Source of the DNA: an uncultured Actinotalea sp.
GTDB taxonomy: Bacteria; Actinomycetota; Actinomycetes; Actinomycetales; Cellulomonadaceae
Assembly: GCF_946885855.1 (NCBI RefSeq)
Contig: NZ_CAMPHH010000174.1
Span: forward strand, 1 to 7,281
Reading direction: 5' to 3'
DNA length: 7,281 nucleotides
The position numbers and the translations under genes were made by a program. Below, piece by piece: positions 5-7,281 of this stretch. Every line of letters begins with the position of its first letter. Within the stretch, counting starts at the first letter, position 1. A model generated the notes under the pieces. The model did no database searches. It was not told the origin of the DNA and worked only from the letters and a program-made list of their open reading frames with translations.

Positions 5-1579
5 ATGACCGCGCCCCCCGCGCCCAGCACTCCCCCGGCCGTCGCACCCTCGGTCACCGCCGCAGCGCCGTCGGACGCCCAGCCCTCCGGGGCGTCGTCG
101 TCGGCAGCGGGCACGGCCTGTCCCGGCATCGACCCCGCCGACCTGGCGACCTTCCTGCGCGTCGTGGACCAGGTGGCCGTCCTGCCGCAGGACCATCCCG
201 ACCACGCCACCGCCCGGCGCGCGGCGTCGGCCCTGTTCAAGGCGGCGAAGAAGCACCGCCGGACGGTCAAGCGGCAGGCGATCGACGCCGCCGACCGCGC
301 CGTGATCGAGGCGACGGCGACGGGCAGCCGCGGACGCATCGACGACGAGACCCGCGGCATCCCCCTGGTCTCGTCGGCCACGGGCGCGACCGCCGGCGAG
401 CTGCTCAAGCCGCGCCCCTGCTACGTCTGCAAGCAGCCGTACACGACGGTCGACGCGTTCTACCACCAGCTCTGCCCGACGTGCGCCACCCTCCACCACG
501 CCAAGCGGGACGCGCGGACGGACCTCACCGGACGCCGGGCGCTGCTGACGGGCGGCCGGGCCAAGATCGGCATGTACATCGCCCTGCGCCTGCTGCGGGA
601 CGGCGCGCACCTGACGATCACGACGCGGTTCCCCAAGGACGCCGCGCGGCGGTTCGCCGCGATGGAGGACGCGGGCGACTGGCTGCACCGGCTGAAGATC
701 GTCGGCATCGACCTGCGGGACCCGTCCCAGGTGGTGGCCCTGGCCGATGACGTCGCGGCCGCCGGGCCGCTCGACGTCCTCATCAACAACGCGGCGCAGA
801 CCGTCCGCCGGTCTCCGCAGGCGTACACCCGGCTCGTCGAGGCGGAGCTCGCGCCACTGACTCCGGCGCTCGAGCCGCTCGTCACCACCTACGGGCACAC
901 GAGCGACGCGCACCCGCGGGCGCTGGCCGGCTCGGTCACCTCCCTCACGAGCCCGGCGCTGGCCATCGAGCGCGCCGCCGCGACCGCAGCGGCCGAGGAC
1001 CTCGTGCAGCAGGCGCTCACGGCCGACGCCGCCGCGCTCGAGCGGCTCGTCGCCGGGACCGGCATCGACGCCGGCGGGCTCGTCCCGGACGAGGCGCACA
1101 CGAACAGCTGGGTCGCCACGGTCGAGCAGGTCGACCCGATGGAGCTGCTCGAGGTGCAGCTGTGCAACCAGACGGCGCCGTTCATCCTCATCAGCCGCCT
1201 GCGGCCGGCGCTGAAGGCCTCGCCGGCGCGGCGGACGTACGTGGTCAACGTCTCGGCGATGGAGGGCGTGTTCTCGCGCGGCTACAAGGGGCCCGGACAC
1301 CCGCACACGAACATGAGCAAGGCGGCCCTCAACATGCTCACGCGCACCAGCGCGGCCGACATGGCGGCCGACGGCATCCTCATGACGGCGGTCGACACCG
1401 GCTGGATCACCGACGAGCGGCCCCACTTCACCAAGGTCCGGCTCGCCGAGGAGGGCTTCCACGCCCCGCTGGACCTCGTCGACGGCGCGGCCCGCGTCTA
1501 CGACCCCGTCGTGCGGGGCGAGGCCGGCGAGGACCTGTACGGCTGCTTCCTCAAGGACTACGAGAAGGCCGCCTGGTAG
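5..1579 (+). CDS. Atypical SDR-like Rossmann-fold protein with N-terminal four-Cys motif
   Basis: This gene encodes 524 residues, about twice the length of a classical SDR. Residues 1-40 are Ala/Pro/Ser-rich and probably disordered. Residues 139-160 carry C139-x2-C142 and C157-x2-C160, a zinc-ribbon-like pattern. The nucleotide-binding fold starts near 178 with the glycine motif TGGRAKIG (182-189), then NNAA (261-264, the usual NNAG place), Asn388 at the position of the SDR active-site Asn, NVSAMEG (415-421), Lys439 in TNMSKAAL, and DTGW (464-467). Aligned by eye, the catalytic Ser falls on Ala418 and the YxxxK Tyr on Thr435, so ordinary SDR oxidoreduction is doubtful. Residues about 265-380 are far longer than this segment in classical SDRs. 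Binding of NAD(P) is inferred from the fold; substrate and role are unknown. From memory, similar long SDR-like proteins with the same cysteine motif exist in other organisms, so the substitutions may be family-wide. Only four bases precede the ATG, so the start cannot be tested and the gene could begin outside the window. Confidence 0.8.
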   Translation: MTAPPAPSTPPAVAPSVTAAAPSDAQPSGASSSAAGTACPGIDPADLATFLRVVDQVAVLPQDHPDHATARRAASALFKAAKKHRRTVKRQAIDAADRAVIEATATGSRGRIDDETRGIPLVSSATGATAGELLKPRPCYVCKQPYTTVDAFYHQLCPTCATLHHAKRDARTDLTGRRALLTGGRAKIGMYIALRLLRDGAHLTITTRFPKDAARRFAAMEDAGDWLHRLKIVGIDLRDPSQVVALADDVAAAGPLDVLINNAAQTVRRSPQAYTRLVEAELAPLTPALEPLVTTYGHTSDAHPRALAGSVTSLTSPALAIERAAATAAAEDLVQQALTADAAALERLVAGTGIDAGGLVPDEAHTNSWVATVEQVDPMELLEVQLCNQTAPFILISRLRPALKASPARRTYVVNVSAMEGVFSRGYKGPGHPHTNMSKAALNMLTRTSAADMAADGILMTAVDTGWITDERPHFTKVRLAEEGFHAPLDLVDGAARVYDPVVRGEAGEDLYGCFLKDYEKAAW

Positions 1580-1586
1580 GCGCACG

Positions 1587-1608
1587 CGGCGGGTCGCCCG
1601 ACCGGCCG
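1587..1608. terminator. GC-rich hairpin between convergent genes, possible bidirectional terminator
   Basis: The 30 bases between the SDR-like stop codon (1577-1579) and the jetC stop codon (1610-1612) contain an imperfect inverted repeat: arm 1587-1595, loop GCCC 1596-1599, arm 1600-1608. Eight of nine pairs match, the exception being a G-G mismatch at 1591/1604. No U-tract follows on either strand, so intrinsic termination is only an inference from the position between convergent genes and the stem strength. In DNA this GC-rich, a stem of this size could also arise by chance. Confidence 0.4.
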
Positions 1609-1609
1609 A

Positions 1610-4600
1610 TCAGCCGGGCCGCACCTCGTCCGCCACCTCGTCCGGCACGCCGACCACCGGCTTCGCCCGGGACCGGCCCGCGGCGTCCTTGAGCACGACG
1701 TACTTGAGGTCCACGTGCGGCTCGAGCGCCCCGAACTTGTCGTTCGGGGCGCCGATGACGAGCTGGAAGCCCAGGCCACGCCACGCGCCGACCGCCCGGC
1801 CGGTGAACCGCGCGTCCGCCTTGATGAGCGCCTCGTCGAGGAAGACCGGGGCGTACCGGGGACGGTCGGCGTCAGCGTCGCCGAGCTGGTAACGCAGGGC
1901 CGCGCCCACGATGAACGCGACGAGCTCCTGGGACTCGCCGCCGGACTTCTCACCGATGTGGTCGTAGAGCGCGACGTGCCGGCCGTCGAGGTCGACCTTC
2001 TCCGCGCTGAGCCGCACGTGCCGCCGCACGTCGACGAGGTCGGCGAAGTCGGGGGCCGTCCGCCGGATGCGGTCGATGACCTTCGCCATGCGGTGGTAGC
2101 GCCGCTCCCGCTCGGCGTCCGTGGCGTCCGTCGCCAGCAGCTCGCGCAGGTCGCGCAGCTCCGTGCGGAACCGCGCGACGACCGTGGACTGGATGTCGCG
2201 GGCGTCGATGCGCAGGCGGTGGTCGTCGTCGGCGAACGGCAGGTCGGCGAGGATGTCGTTGACCGGCCGGATCCGCTCCTTGATCTCCCGCACGGACCGG
2301 CTCAGCGCGTGGTGCAGGTCGGTGAGGTCGTTGCCCGACAGCCGCAGGAGGCTCTTGCGCCACTCCTCCTCCAGCTCGTGCAGCCCGTTGGCCTCGAGGT
2401 CGACGAGCAGCCGCTCGAAGTCCGCGTACGACTCCTCCGGGTCCGTGCCGAGGTTCGGGTCGGGCCAGCGCTCGACGAACGTCTCGAACGTGCGACGCAG
2501 GCCCTCGCGCGCGAGCCCGACCGCCTGCTGCGCCGCGACCCGCTCCGCGGCGAGCACCTGGGTCGCGCGCGCCGTCCGCTGGTCGAACGCGCGCAGCGCG
2601 TCGGCCGGCCGGGCGGGCCCGCCGGCGGGGGCCGCGTCCGGGGCGTCCCCGTCCTCGGCCCCCAGGTGACGCTCCAGGTACTCCCGGTGCTCCGCAGCGA
2701 CGACCGTGCCGGCGGCGCGCGCCGCGTCCAGCGCCTGCTGGGCCGCGTCGACCTCGTCGGTCGTCGACGCCCACCGCGCCTCGAGCTCCGCGGTCCGCCC
2801 CTTCGCCCGGCCGAGCTCTTCGGTGAGCGTCCGGATGCTCGCCTCCAGCTCGCCCGCCCGCCGCTGCAGCCGCTCGACCTCCGGGCTGCCCGACGTCACG
2901 CCGTCGATGACCCGCAGCCAGCGCGTCACCTCGGCCTCGGCGCCGCCGACATCGACCTGGTCCCACGTGACGTCCCGCAGGGAGGCGTAGGCGGTGCGCC
3001 GGCTCTCCAGCCCGTCGAGCCGCCGGCCCGCCGCCTCGGCCTCGGCCTCCGCCGATCCCAGGCGCTCCTCGGCCCGCGAAATCCGCTCGTCGAGGTCGGC
3101 GAGGAGCCGGGCGTTGCTGAAGCCCAGGACGTTCGCCCGCCCCTGGCCGCCGTGGGCACCCCGGTGCCCCTCGGAGACCTGCCCGGAGCGGGTCAGCGCC
3201 TTGCTGTGCTGGGCCAGCTCACCGGGGGTGTCGACGCACACGAACGCGAACCGGGAGGCGAGCTCGCTGCGCACCCACCCGGCGAACGGTCCGGGCCGCA
3301 GGTCGAGGCGACCCGGCAGCGTGCGGGGGTCCAGCGCGACGTCGTCGCGCAGCCCCGTGGGGACGCCCTCGAACCGGATCCGGCGGGCGGTCGGCACCGC
3401 GTCGATCGCGGCGCGGAAGGCCCGCAGGTGCGCCGCGTCGAGGAGCAGCAAGGTCGCGAACCCGCCGAGCGCCACGTTGAACGCGTCGCGCCACGGCTCG
3501 TGCTCGGTGCGCACCTCGACCAGCTCGGCGACGAACGGCAGGTCGGCGGCGGTGAGCCCAGCCGCCTCCGCGAGCGCCTGCCGGGCCCGGTGGAGGTCGC
3601 CCGGGATGTTGTCGGCGCGGCGGGCGGCCTGGGCACGCTCCTCACGCAGCGCGGCGAGGTCCGACCGCGCCGCCGCCCGCTCCGCCATCGCCTCCGCGAA
3701 CGCGGTACGGGTCGCGTCCTTGGCGCCGACGTCGTCCAGCGCCGCTCCCCCGCGGGCCAGCAGCGCCGCGAGGTCCGCGGCGGAGGTGACCGACGCGCCG
3801 AGCGGCTCCATCAGGGCGTCGAGCCGCCGCCGGGCCTCGGTGACGCGCTCGAGGCGCTGCTCGGCGCCCCGCACCTCGCGCTGCGCCGTCGCCAGGCGGT
3901 CCCCGCCGGAGGCCCACAGCGTCTCGCGGACCCCGTCGAGCTCGGCACGTGCGGCCTCGACGCGCGTGCCCGTCTCGAGGACGACCCGCCGGGCGTCCGC
4001 GTGCTCCCGCTGCAGCTCGCCCTCGACGGAGCGCAGGAGGTCCAGGCGCCGCTCGTCGCGCCACAGGGCGACCGGTGACGTGGGCGCGTCGACCGACCCG
4101 AGCGCGTCGAGGACCCGCAGCCGCTCCGAGGCCTCCTCGATGCTCGCGCGGTGCTGCCGGATCGGCTCGAGTGCCTTGACCTGCTGCCGCGCGGTGATCA
4201 TCTGCTGACGGGTGCCGCTGAGCTTGTCGAACTGCTCGACGACGGCGTCGGCCGTCGCGAACGTGCTCGGCTCCTCCAGCACCATCGCCTTGTACAGGGC
4301 GTCGACGGTGGTGATCTGCTGCCCCGCCTGGATCCGCCCGAGCAGCGCGACGGCCTTGGCCCCGTCGCCGGTCGCCCCGATCCCGAGGGTCAGGTGCAGG
4401 CGTGCGGTGTACTCCCGATCGGTGTCGAAGGGCGTGAGCCCCGCACGCGTCACCGCACCACGGGAGAGCCGGTCGACGACAGCGGCCTCGAGGTCGCGCA
4501 GGTCGAACGGACCGTCGCAGGTCGCCCGGACCGCGACGACGTCCTCCAGCGTGCGCGCCGCCGACGGCACGTACCAGGCCCGCACCGCGGTGAAGAGGCG

Positions 4601-5008
4601 GTCCGCCTGGTCGGCCCAGGTCATCGCGACCGCGGTCCAGGTGTCCTGGCCGTCGCCGCGCAGCACCCGTTCGCGCGTGCCGTCCTCGGTGCGGGACTCG
4701 TCGAGCTTGCCGCGGGCGTAGGACACGATGTTGCGCTGGTCCTTGCCGCGCGGCCGCCCGACGACACCACCGTTGGACGCCCCGTTGAACGGCGTGGTGT
4801 GCGGCATGAGCAGCGCGATGTAGGCGTCCATGAGCGTGGACTTGCCCGAGCCCGAGCCGCCCGCGAGGAGCGTCGCCGTCGACGCGAGCCGCAGGACGTG
4901 GTGCCCGTCGTAGCCGCCCCAGTTGACCAGCTGCAGGTCGCGCGCGACCCACTGCTGGCCGGTGGACGACTGCGGGACGAGCCCGAAGAGCGTGTCGACC
5001 ATCGTCAT
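1610..5008 (-). CDS. jetC: JetC/MksB-like SMC-type ATPase of a Wadjet condensin
   Basis: This 1132-residue protein is the motor subunit of a Wadjet/MksBEF complex. In studied systems it dimerises, binds the JetA kleisin and JetB, and uses ATP to extrude DNA loops. The N-terminal head half has Walker A GGSGSGKS (50-57). Charged helical segments from about 265 to 465 and 635 to 845 look like the two coiled-coil arms. They flank a globular hinge-like region at about 485-635, which includes [13 protein letters not shown] (504-516) and [14 protein letters not shown] (626-639). The C-terminal head half has the ABC signature KSGGES (1021-1026) and Walker B VFLDEA (1055-1060), followed by a D-loop-like LIKAD (1061-1065). 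All key ATPase motifs look intact and the length suits the family. Residues about 783-802 form an Asp/Ala/Pro/Gly-rich, probably flexible break in the second arm. The start ATG overlaps the jetB stop as ATGA and has a strong Shine-Dalgarno sequence; a second Met two codons on is the only close alternative. The expected downstream jetD is absent. Confidence 0.93.
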
Positions 5009-5679
5009 CGCGCGGCCTCCTGGGTGCGGTTCTGCTCGCGGAGCCAGTCCCGCAGCTCCACCAGCCGCGCGGTGCTCAGCACCACCTCCACGAGCGGGGT
5101 GACGCGGTACCGCCCCTCCGACTCCTCCTCGATGAGGCCGTCCTTCGCGAGCCGCTGGACCGCCGCGCGGATCTCCCGCTGCCGGGTCGCGAGGTTCGTC
5201 TCGTCGGGGTCGAAGTAGGTGAGCGCGGTCTGCTCCATCTCCTCGACGTCGACCCGCACCGACGTCTGCCCGGCGCCCTGCTCGCGCTGGAACACCGTGC
5301 GCAGGTGGACGAGGACGAGCGTCTCAGCGCGCGTGTACGCCTCGTCGCGCAGCAGCACCGGGACGTCGAGCTCGGCCGAGCGCACCTGCTTCTTGTAGGC
5401 GACGCCGCGCTCGTGGTCGACGACGAGGTGGACGAACAGGTCGTGCAGCCGGGACTCCACCACCTGCTGGTTCTCGAGCAGAGTGCGCCACTGGGCGGGG
5501 CTGCGCTCGGCCAGCAGGAAGCGGCGCTGCAGCAGCCGCACGAGGAGGCGGCGCACGTCCGCGTCGAGCGTGCCGGAGTCCCCGGCGAAGAGCTCCGACG
5601 GGTCCTCCTCCATGGGGACGGGCGCGATGAACGCCGTCGCGCTCCCCGGCGTCGCGGCCTCGGTCGTCGTGTCAGTCAT
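5005..5679 (-). CDS. jetB: JetB/MksE-like DUF4194 subunit of a Wadjet condensin
   Basis: This 224-residue protein matches, by recognition of sequence character, the DUF4194 family (JetB). These are winged-helix KITE-like proteins that bind the JetA kleisin in the condensin core. Residues 1-25 are Thr/Ala/Pro-rich and probably disordered. The rest alternates helices and strands, ending in a winged-helix-like segment rich in charged residues ([20 protein letters not shown], then a Val/Leu-rich C-terminal helix). The open frame runs much further upstream (to 6459), but that part is Arg/Ser/Thr-rich shadow of jetA. The chosen ATG at 5679 starts [12 protein letters not shown], has a good Shine-Dalgarno sequence 8 bases upstream, and overlaps the jetA stop by 8 bases. 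The stop overlaps the jetC start by 4 bases. This arrangement points to translational coupling and balanced subunit synthesis. Confidence 0.92.
5016..5021 (-). promoter_or_regulatory. Ribosome binding site of jetC
   Basis: Read on the minus strand this is AGGAGG, a near-perfect Shine-Dalgarno sequence, 7 bases before the ATG at 5008. It lies within the last codons of jetB and supports this start over the Met two codons later. Confidence 0.85.
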
Positions 5680-7153
5680 CGTCCGCGTCCTCCACTCGTG
5701 CGGTGACGGCACCGAACGCGAAGCGCCGTCGGGTCCCGTCGGGGCGGACGGCGACCACCGAGGCGACGTCGTCCTGCTCGTCCATGCCCAGCTCGTGGGC
5801 CAGCTCGATGAGCCCGAGGAGGTCCACGGGCCGGCGGAGTCCCTCCGGCGCCGCGTCGAACGCCGCCGCGACGTCGACGGTGCCGGCGCCGCCCACCATC
5901 CCGGCGAGGTGCTGCCGCAGCTGCTGGTAGTGCGCCCCGCCCCAGGCGCGGGCCTCGTCGTCCGAGACGTCCGGGCCGCCGTGGTCGTCCCACGCGGCCA
6001 GCGGCGACGGCGGCTGCGAGGGCCGCAGGTCACCGGGGGTCTGGCGCAGGTGGTCGACGTCGGCCACGGGCAGCCGGCGCAGGGGCTCGACCGCGTGCCC
6101 GCGACGGGCGTCCGGCGTCCACGCCTGCAGGCCGCGCATGACGTCCCGCAGGAGCTCGTCGACCTGACGGTCCCGCAGCGGGTCGTGGTTCCGGACCTGG
6201 GCGGTGATGACGTACGAGGCCTCGCGCTGGGCGGTGAAGACGAGGTCCAGCCCCTGCTCGATCCGGCGGACGAGGTCCCGCAGCTCGCCGCGCTGCTGCG
6301 GCAGCAGCCGCCGGGTGAAGGGGTGCTGCAGGACGACGTCGAGCCGGCCCGAGAGCTCGTCGAGGTGCTGCGCGTCCCCGATGAGCCGCAGCGCCCCCGC
6401 GAAGGCGCGGCCCTCCGCGGTCGACTCCATGACGTGCTCGCCGCGCTCGAGGTACTCACGCAGCACCTCGCCGGTGGGCCGCTCGTCCTGGCGCAGCGCG
6501 GTGACGACGTCGCGCTGCATCGCCTTGATGGACTCCGCGACCCGCGCGAAGTCCGCGGGCAGCTCCCGCACGAGGTGCAGGACGTTCTCCGCCTCCTCGA
6601 GGAGCTGCTCCTCGTCCACCTCCTCGACGACCCCGGTGCGCTGGATCTCGGCGAGCTCCGCGCGCAGCCGCGTGATCTCGGCGTCGAGGCGGGCCATCCG
6701 CACGAGGACGTCCGGGTCGGCGTCCTGGGCCAGCCGCTCCACCGCGTCGAGGAGGGTCCGGACGCGGGAGCGGGACACCCGTGCCCGCGCGCCGCCGGCC
6801 CGACCGGCGACCTCGAGCGCGCCGACGGCGTGCGCGGAGAGCCGGTACACCTCGACGTCGTCCTCGAGCACCTGCCGGACGAGCCACCCCGCGTCCGCCC
6901 ACTGCCGGCACAGGTCGCGCGCGTTGGCCGTCGCCGGCAGGCCGTCCTCGTGACCGGCCGCCCGGAGCTCGTCGAGCGCGGTGCCGACCTCGGCGTGCGC
7001 GTCCGCCACGGGGACGGTGGGTCGCTCGGCGGTGAAGAGCATCGACAGCAGCGAGACGACGAGCGGTGCGTGCCGCTTGTGGAGCAGGTCCAGCATGGGG
7101 TTCTGGAACGCCCGGACCGCCCCCAGGTACGCCGCTTCCGCTCGCGTCATCAT
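5672..7153 (-). CDS. jetA: JetA/MksF-like DUF3375 kleisin subunit of a Wadjet condensin
   Basis: This 493-residue protein is recognised as DUF3375 (JetA), the kleisin-like subunit that bridges the JetC heads and binds JetB. The N-terminus reads [20 protein letters not shown], followed by a mostly helical region of about 100 residues of winged-helix character. Residues about 130-220 are strongly charged and helical, probably coiled coil. A helical middle (about 230-350, with [19 protein letters not shown] near 277-295) follows, then a Pro/Gly/Asp-rich linker (about 370-400). A C-terminal domain ends in an acidic tail (EDADDD). It is the first gene of the operon. The frame stays open to 7276, but that extension would cross the terminator-like hairpin and uses a CTA codon, atypical here, so it is rejected. 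Two adjacent ATGs (7153 and 7150) are possible starts. Neither has a Shine-Dalgarno sequence, unlike the next two genes, which suggests leaderless translation. Confidence 0.92.
5688..5693 (-). promoter_or_regulatory. Ribosome binding site of jetB
   Basis: Read on the minus strand this is GGAGGA, 8 bases before the ATG at 5679. It lies inside the 3' end of jetA and decides the jetB start against the much longer upstream open frame. Confidence 0.85.
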
Positions 7154-7192: not shown

Positions 7193-7242
7193 AGGCACCA
7201 CGGGCTGTCGGGGGCCGGCAGACGTCCGCGGCCGGGCACGAC

Positions 7243-7274
7243 GAAGGCCCCTGACCGGCGGGTCAGGGGCCTTC
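7243..7274. terminator. Strong terminator-like hairpin upstream of jetA
   Basis: A perfect 14-base-pair stem (7243-7256 with 7261-7274) closes a GGCG loop. Four further pairs (7239-7242 with 7278-7281) can form after a three-base bulge. The AAGGCCCCTGACC/GGTCAGGGGCCTT arms resemble terminators common in high-GC actinobacteria. No U-run follows on either strand within the window, which is usual for such terminators. It probably ends a transcript from an upstream gene outside the window or insulates the jet operon; direction cannot be decided from what is visible. Confidence 0.7.
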
Positions 7275-7281
7275 ATCGTCG

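Follow-up and report, generated by a model that had tools for sequence, protein, structure and literature searches.

Probable recurrent loss of the nuclease gene jetD from Wadjet-type JetABC operons in a single actinobacterial family, viewed from an Actinotalea locus

What does a DNA-extruding defence motor do once the nuclease that it works with is missing? In the available portions of the published accounts, JetABC is described as a dimeric motor that extrudes a plasmid before JetD cuts it (PMC12647877), JetD as the nuclease that executes plasmid cleavage (PMC10123090), and the anti-plasmid activity in B. subtilis as requiring all four subunits (PMC10586767). The locus investigated here, located within a stretch of 7,281 nt from an uncultured Actinotalea sp. 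(from here: the window), raises this question, as it codes for the motor without the cutter.

JetA, JetB and JetC of the window are near full-length matches to the PADLOC type I models and their genes keep the order of Wadjet type I (Table 1), with overlaps of 8 bp between jetA and jetB and of 4 bp between jetB and jetC. In Pfam, JetC matched SbcC_Walker_B (3.5e-22) and AAA_29 (3.4e-20). A sequence-only reading of this DNA had described three complete genes with intact overlaps and intact JetC motifs, followed after 30 bases by a convergent gene and not by jetD. The PADLOC and Pfam matches and the motif scan confirmed the first part of this description, and the convergent gene was found to belong to the SDR family. 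No jetD was detected in the 7,281-nt window, and there is no open reading frame between jetC and the SDR gene. Hence, the locus resembles Wadjet type I (JetABCD, also MksBEFG) in its JetA, JetB and JetC models, including a motif-intact JetC, and in its gene order, but differs from it by the lack of a JetD nuclease gene beside jetC; an operon for a three-subunit core without a nuclease gene is a feature that it shares with MksBEF-type systems.

Table 1. Features of the jetABC locus, with positions given in window coordinates.
Feature	Position	Strand	Evidence or remark
jetA (kleisin, DUF3375), 493 aa	5672..7153	(-)	Pfam PF11855 1.5e-119; PADLOC JetA1 682.9 bits
jetB (KITE, DUF4194), 224 aa	5005..5679	(-)	Pfam PF13835 5.9e-43; PADLOC JetB1 366.3 bits
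jetC (SMC ATPase), 1132 aa	1610..5008	(-)	PADLOC JetC1 1641.1 bits, aa 1-1124
JetB N-terminal motif LFAGDSG, aa 30-36	5572..5592	(-)	F-x-G-D-x-G pattern
JetC Walker A GSGSGKS, aa 51-57	4838..4858	(-)	motif scan
JetC signature motif SGGE, aa 1022-1025	1934..1945	(-)	motif scan
JetC Walker B LDEA, aa 1057-1060	1829..1840	(-)	motif scan
SDR-family gene, 524 aa, convergent with the jet operon	5..1579	(+)	adh_short 4.4e-19
Junction, 30 bp, SDR stop to jetC stop	1580..1609		jetD slot of the closest relative

An Mks complex without JetD is an already known kind. P. aeruginosa MksBEF is described as a likely derivative of JetD loss with a part in chromosome organisation (in the available text of PMC10586767) and with a role in chromosome segregation, standing beside Smc-ScpAB (in that of PMC7485682). 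The window locus is similar to it in having a three-gene core without nuclease, but it belongs to another lineage and is likened to MksBEF by gene content, not by sequence kinship. C. glutamicum MksBEFG is likewise actinobacterial and a second SMC complex beside Smc-ScpAB; this nuclease-bearing Mks acts on plasmids, and nucleoid architecture was not obviously influenced by it (PMC7083940). The descent of MukBEF and MksBEF from defence systems is named as an open question (PMC10586767, section 7). Our full-text literature search returned no paper containing both Cellulomonas and Wadjet, and family-wide or recurrent jetD loss was not found in titles and abstract openings, in a search that covered few subscription papers.

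For the comparison with relatives, the best 80 of 91 related loci found in genome contigs were used. The nearest among them is from Actinotalea MAG-52 (L077), with 89.6% identical DNA along a 3.7-kb stretch that reaches window base 7281 and 92% identity of the concatenated JetABC proteins. The jetC contig of MAG-52 stops inside jetC. A second contig of the same genome (L086) carries an SDR gene and then a convergent jetD, which shares 17 bp with the end of the SDR gene and continues as far as the contig reaches. The two SDR proteins share 93% amino acid identity over 483 residues, and this jetD was recognized as JetD1 by PADLOC (240.8 bits). The jetC-jetD junction of MAG-52 would lie across the contig gap. 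Given this arrangement, the SDR gene is the natural operon neighbour, and it is precisely the gene in between that is missing from the window. Because the closest relative possesses the same SDR gene together with jetD at this place, jetD was most likely deleted from the window locus. A loss of jetD had been one of the options in the sequence-only reading, which had also suggested looking for jetD near jetC in close relatives; the option is supported by the same-slot jetD of MAG-52 and by remnants in three other loci (see below). A jetD situated just past the right end of the window would have spoken against it, and none was seen in L077, where an opposite-strand gene follows with no jetD between that gene and jetA.

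Absence of jetD was frequent among the relatives. The gene stood beside jetC in 27 of the 80 loci (in L077 as deduced from its two contigs), while 53 were without it. In a profile search, JetD_C was found in 13 of 47 and in 17 of 32 genomes, covering the genomes of 79 of the 80 loci with L021 left out. No JetD_C match was obtained for 49 of the 52 jetD-less relatives' genomes searched; the exceptions were L067, in which the match is a remnant, and L022 and L079, with matches on other contigs. The idea that the nuclease is encoded elsewhere in the genome is thus not supported in the relatives. The stretch after jetC is shorter than 1.3 kb in five jetD-less loci (L007, L009, L011, L017, L055), whose genomes lack JetD_C; jetA is cut by the contig start in L019 and L065 and is also cut in L036, a jetD-bearing row. 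The operon likewise stops at jetC, with no JetD match after it, on seven near-complete contigs (3.5-4.8 Mb) of further members of the family. A JetD match occurred in one of 17 stretches examined (L130, picked as a jetD-bearing example), among which L127 ends at jetC and has no bearing either way. A replacement nuclease downstream of jetC was also considered and rejected: in nine jetD-less loci, the genes immediately following jetC gave no JetD in PADLOC, which returned only Fic-like (L135) and weak helix-turn-helix or JetB matches (L001).

To extend these counts, 150 genomes were drawn from the GTDB family of the genome of L001, to which the window is assigned by gene kinship. JetA was present in 121 of them, JetC in 120, JetD_C in 22 and JetD_N in 22. 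In a phylum-wide draw, JetA occurred in 10 of 296 genomes, one of which was the centre genome; JetD_C was present in seven of the other nine carriers and absent in two. By Fisher tests, which ignore the kinship of these related genomes, JetA is strongly over-represented in the family and JetD strongly under-represented among its JetA carriers. Since ScpA was detected in 149 of the 150 family genomes, JetABC is a second SMC complex in this family. JetC proteins of the window type, i.e. at least 45% identical to the JetC of the window, were found in 80 family genomes, 17 with and 63 without JetD_C. The JetD_C was apparently cognate in 10 of the 80 (adjacent in eight, by synteny in G045 and on another contig in G180), and in seven it belongs to a second, divergent JetABCD. 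These seven genomes (G202, G199, G092, G165, G150, G099 and G046) combine a jetD-less JetABC of the window type with that complete second system. A more divergent JetABC subtype exists in the family as well (L122-L126, JetC 26-30% identical where listed); it showed no JetD match downstream, and from these sequences the nuclease may have been lost in this second lineage, too.

The distribution of jetD was mapped onto a JetA-JetB-JetC concatenation tree (81 rows, quick LG+G4 search, with long-branch warnings). L077 was scored as jetD-bearing though its jetC contig and the SDR-jetD contig both end at that point, L004 as jetD-bearing despite an in-frame stop, and L067 as jetD-less with a remnant. 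At least 14 changes of the jetD state were counted, compared with 23 on average when the labels were shuffled; these changes are silent on gain versus loss, and the direction comes from the scars and from the same-slot jetD. With jetD ancestral and a midpoint root, 28 losses are needed. Remnants were recognized downstream of three of the 53 jetD-less loci at E <0.01: L014 retains a start region overlapping the jetC stop plus ~57 C-terminal residues of jetD, L058 ~59 C-terminal residues, and L067 an internal piece. In the jetD of Cellulomonas phragmiteti (L004:13359-13460), an in-frame stop is located near the start, ~65 bp after jetC, and judging from its sequence this gene is possibly in decay. 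The JetDs still present in the family have diverged further: at a JetC identity of 74-79%, the median identity of JetD was 53.6% in the family (7 pairs) versus 70.1% outside (32 pairs). All 27 JetD proteins have the glutamate motif and 26 have the DxD motif, with L075 off pattern; we take both motifs to be the catalytic residues of a Toprim fold. The repeated loss of jetD across the family appears well supported by these comparisons, in which the family differs from P. aeruginosa MksBEF by loss that would have occurred many times and by members that keep jetD.

The sequence-only reading had also held that the core remains under selection, and this is supported by dN/dS and by the lack of acceleration on jetD-less branches. 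For JetC, dN/dS was 0.042-0.216 in 14 pairs of jetD-less loci and 0.145-0.230 in five pairs of jetD-bearing loci, the pairs not being independent. Between the window and L077, values of 0.094 for jetA, 0.187 for jetB and 0.159 for jetC (over 476 codons) were obtained. Some jetD-less pairs gave higher values for jetB (up to 0.589), in proteins whose tails are longer and variable. Of eight sister pairs differing in jetD, three had the longer branch on the jetD-less side (p 0.31). Walker A (G-x4-GK[ST]) was present in 81 of 81 JetC rows, SGGE in 80 and LDEA in 79, both being absent from the truncated L077, while L064 has MDEA. Taken together, loss of jetD in the window and in the family with continued selection on the core is very probable.

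According to the available text of PMC10586767, the N-terminus of JetB bears an IFDR motif that is contacted by JetD. A decay of the JetB N-terminal motif after jetD loss was not seen, as F-x-G-D-x-G was kept in 54 of 54 jetD-less proteins and in 27 of 27 jetD-bearing ones, and residues F31, G33, D34 and G36 were invariant in 19 aligned JetBs. An attempt to map IFDR onto these JetBs failed, the alignable part of the solved JetBs beginning only around residue 31 or 48; for this reason, the persistence of the motif does not permit the conclusion that a docking site has been retained.

With regard to genomic position, 23 near-complete genomes were compared. The distance between window-type jetC and scpA stays within 0.4 of half a genome in 22 of them, and it is 118-226 kb in seven; this set consists of near-complete contigs, G010, G042, G167 and G186 were dropped for incomplete contigs, and the p-value for this distance takes no account of kinship. 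Such a broadly stable distance fits vertical chromosomal inheritance more than a roaming defence island. A search for one fixed gene neighbourhood throughout the family found none, and the immediate neighbours differ among genera. In a search for copies on plasmids, 15 of 72,556 plasmid records matched, all below 60% identity and the best at 42%. In L065, L066, L068, L071 and L072, a conserved co-directional gene of ~823 aa follows jetC after ~60-180 bp; its sequence in L072 is presumably glycogen phosphorylase-like.

As the best remaining reading of these comparisons, type I Wadjet has probably, in our judgement with moderate confidence, been converted repeatedly into a second SMC complex that lacks a nuclease, resembles MksBEF and has a role at the chromosome. 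Its case includes jetABC being near-core in the family (JetA 121/150) against 10/296 phylum-wide, with JetD_C in only 22/150. Under this reading, jetD would have been deleted from the slot between jetC and the neighbouring SDR gene, and the remaining operon would most likely make an ATP-driven SMC complex without a DNA cutter. This complex should hydrolyse ATP and move DNA without cutting it, and would act alongside Smc-ScpAB as a second condensin, in a way comparable to P. aeruginosa MksBEF. We infer that it has kept the ability to travel along DNA or to extrude it, and that it serves in the upkeep of the chromosome. Three points count against this reading: the C. glutamicum Mks, which is nuclease-bearing, argues against a chromosome role, given the lack of an obvious nucleoid effect in the available text of PMC7083940; a partner could still bind the conserved JetB N-terminus; and the neighbourhood outside the operon varies between genera.

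Of the other explanations, a nuclease-free immunity is the most probable, though still unlikely. JetABC would recognise small circular DNA and hold, compact or silence it without cutting, like Smc5/6 on extrachromosomal DNA. The action of SMC complexes on such DNA has been reviewed (PMC10586767, in the text available), and a core that stays intact and under selection without jetD is compatible with it. However, a defence gene would not usually occur in 121 of 150 family genomes or hold a broadly stable position on the chromosome, and the need for all four subunits against plasmids in B. subtilis (same source and extent) is at odds with immunity by three. Rather improbable is a nuclease encoded elsewhere that works in trans with JetABC. 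The JetB N-terminal motif of the 54 jetD-less rows and the JetD of the second, divergent JetABCD in 7 of 80 window-type genomes could serve such a scheme, but 63 of these 80 genomes have no JetD_C, JetD_N is just as rare (22/150), and the first downstream genes of the nine loci held no PADLOC JetD.

It is very unlikely that the operon is a recently disarmed remnant, with jetD just lost and jetABC on its way out. The split between window and L077 is recent, as their 92% JetABC identity indicates, and left little time for decay on the window branch; yet intact genes persist in a seven-row clade without jetD and in further rows, JetC dN/dS is ~0.04-0.05 among the closest members of that clade, and the jetD-less branches show no acceleration. 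Least credible, and to be entertained only as a very slim chance, is an assembly artefact in which an existing jetD was left out, or the contig misjoined, at ~1580-1610. The SDR-jetD neighbourhood in MAG-52 makes such a misjoin unlikely, as a random one would hardly have joined jetC to the natural neighbour past jetD, and the same absence recurs on the seven near-complete contigs of relatives. Overall, the sequence-only reading is partly supported: its loss of jetD and its selection on the core stood, its nuclease elsewhere did not, as far as the relatives are concerned, and its nuclease-free condensin of MksBEF type is the reading favoured here as to a putative function.

That most sampled relatives with the motor are without the cutter suggests that the motor has been recruited to a different task, perhaps maintenance of the chromosome. 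With chances that we regard as evenly balanced, this one family offers many independent replicates of a transition from defence system to housekeeping condensin, with jetD retained, decaying, scarred or gone. Close species, often sister pairs, differ by the nuclease at the same operon, which makes the change of role testable by direct comparison. In addition, if Wadjet were called on the basis of JetABC alone, many genomes would be assigned a plasmid defence that they may not have. We found no published account of the recurrence and near-fixation of jetD-less JetABC in one family.

Two further features of the window were noted. Upstream of jetA, a perfect inverted repeat, GGCCCCTGACC / GGTCAGGGGCC, is located at 7238-7275. 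It is terminator-like without a T run, and is for that reason missing from the promoter and terminator scan of the window, which returned nothing. The SDR protein has a long N-terminal extension before its Rossmann part with two CxxC pairs, CYVC and CPTC, which perhaps constitute a zinc site.
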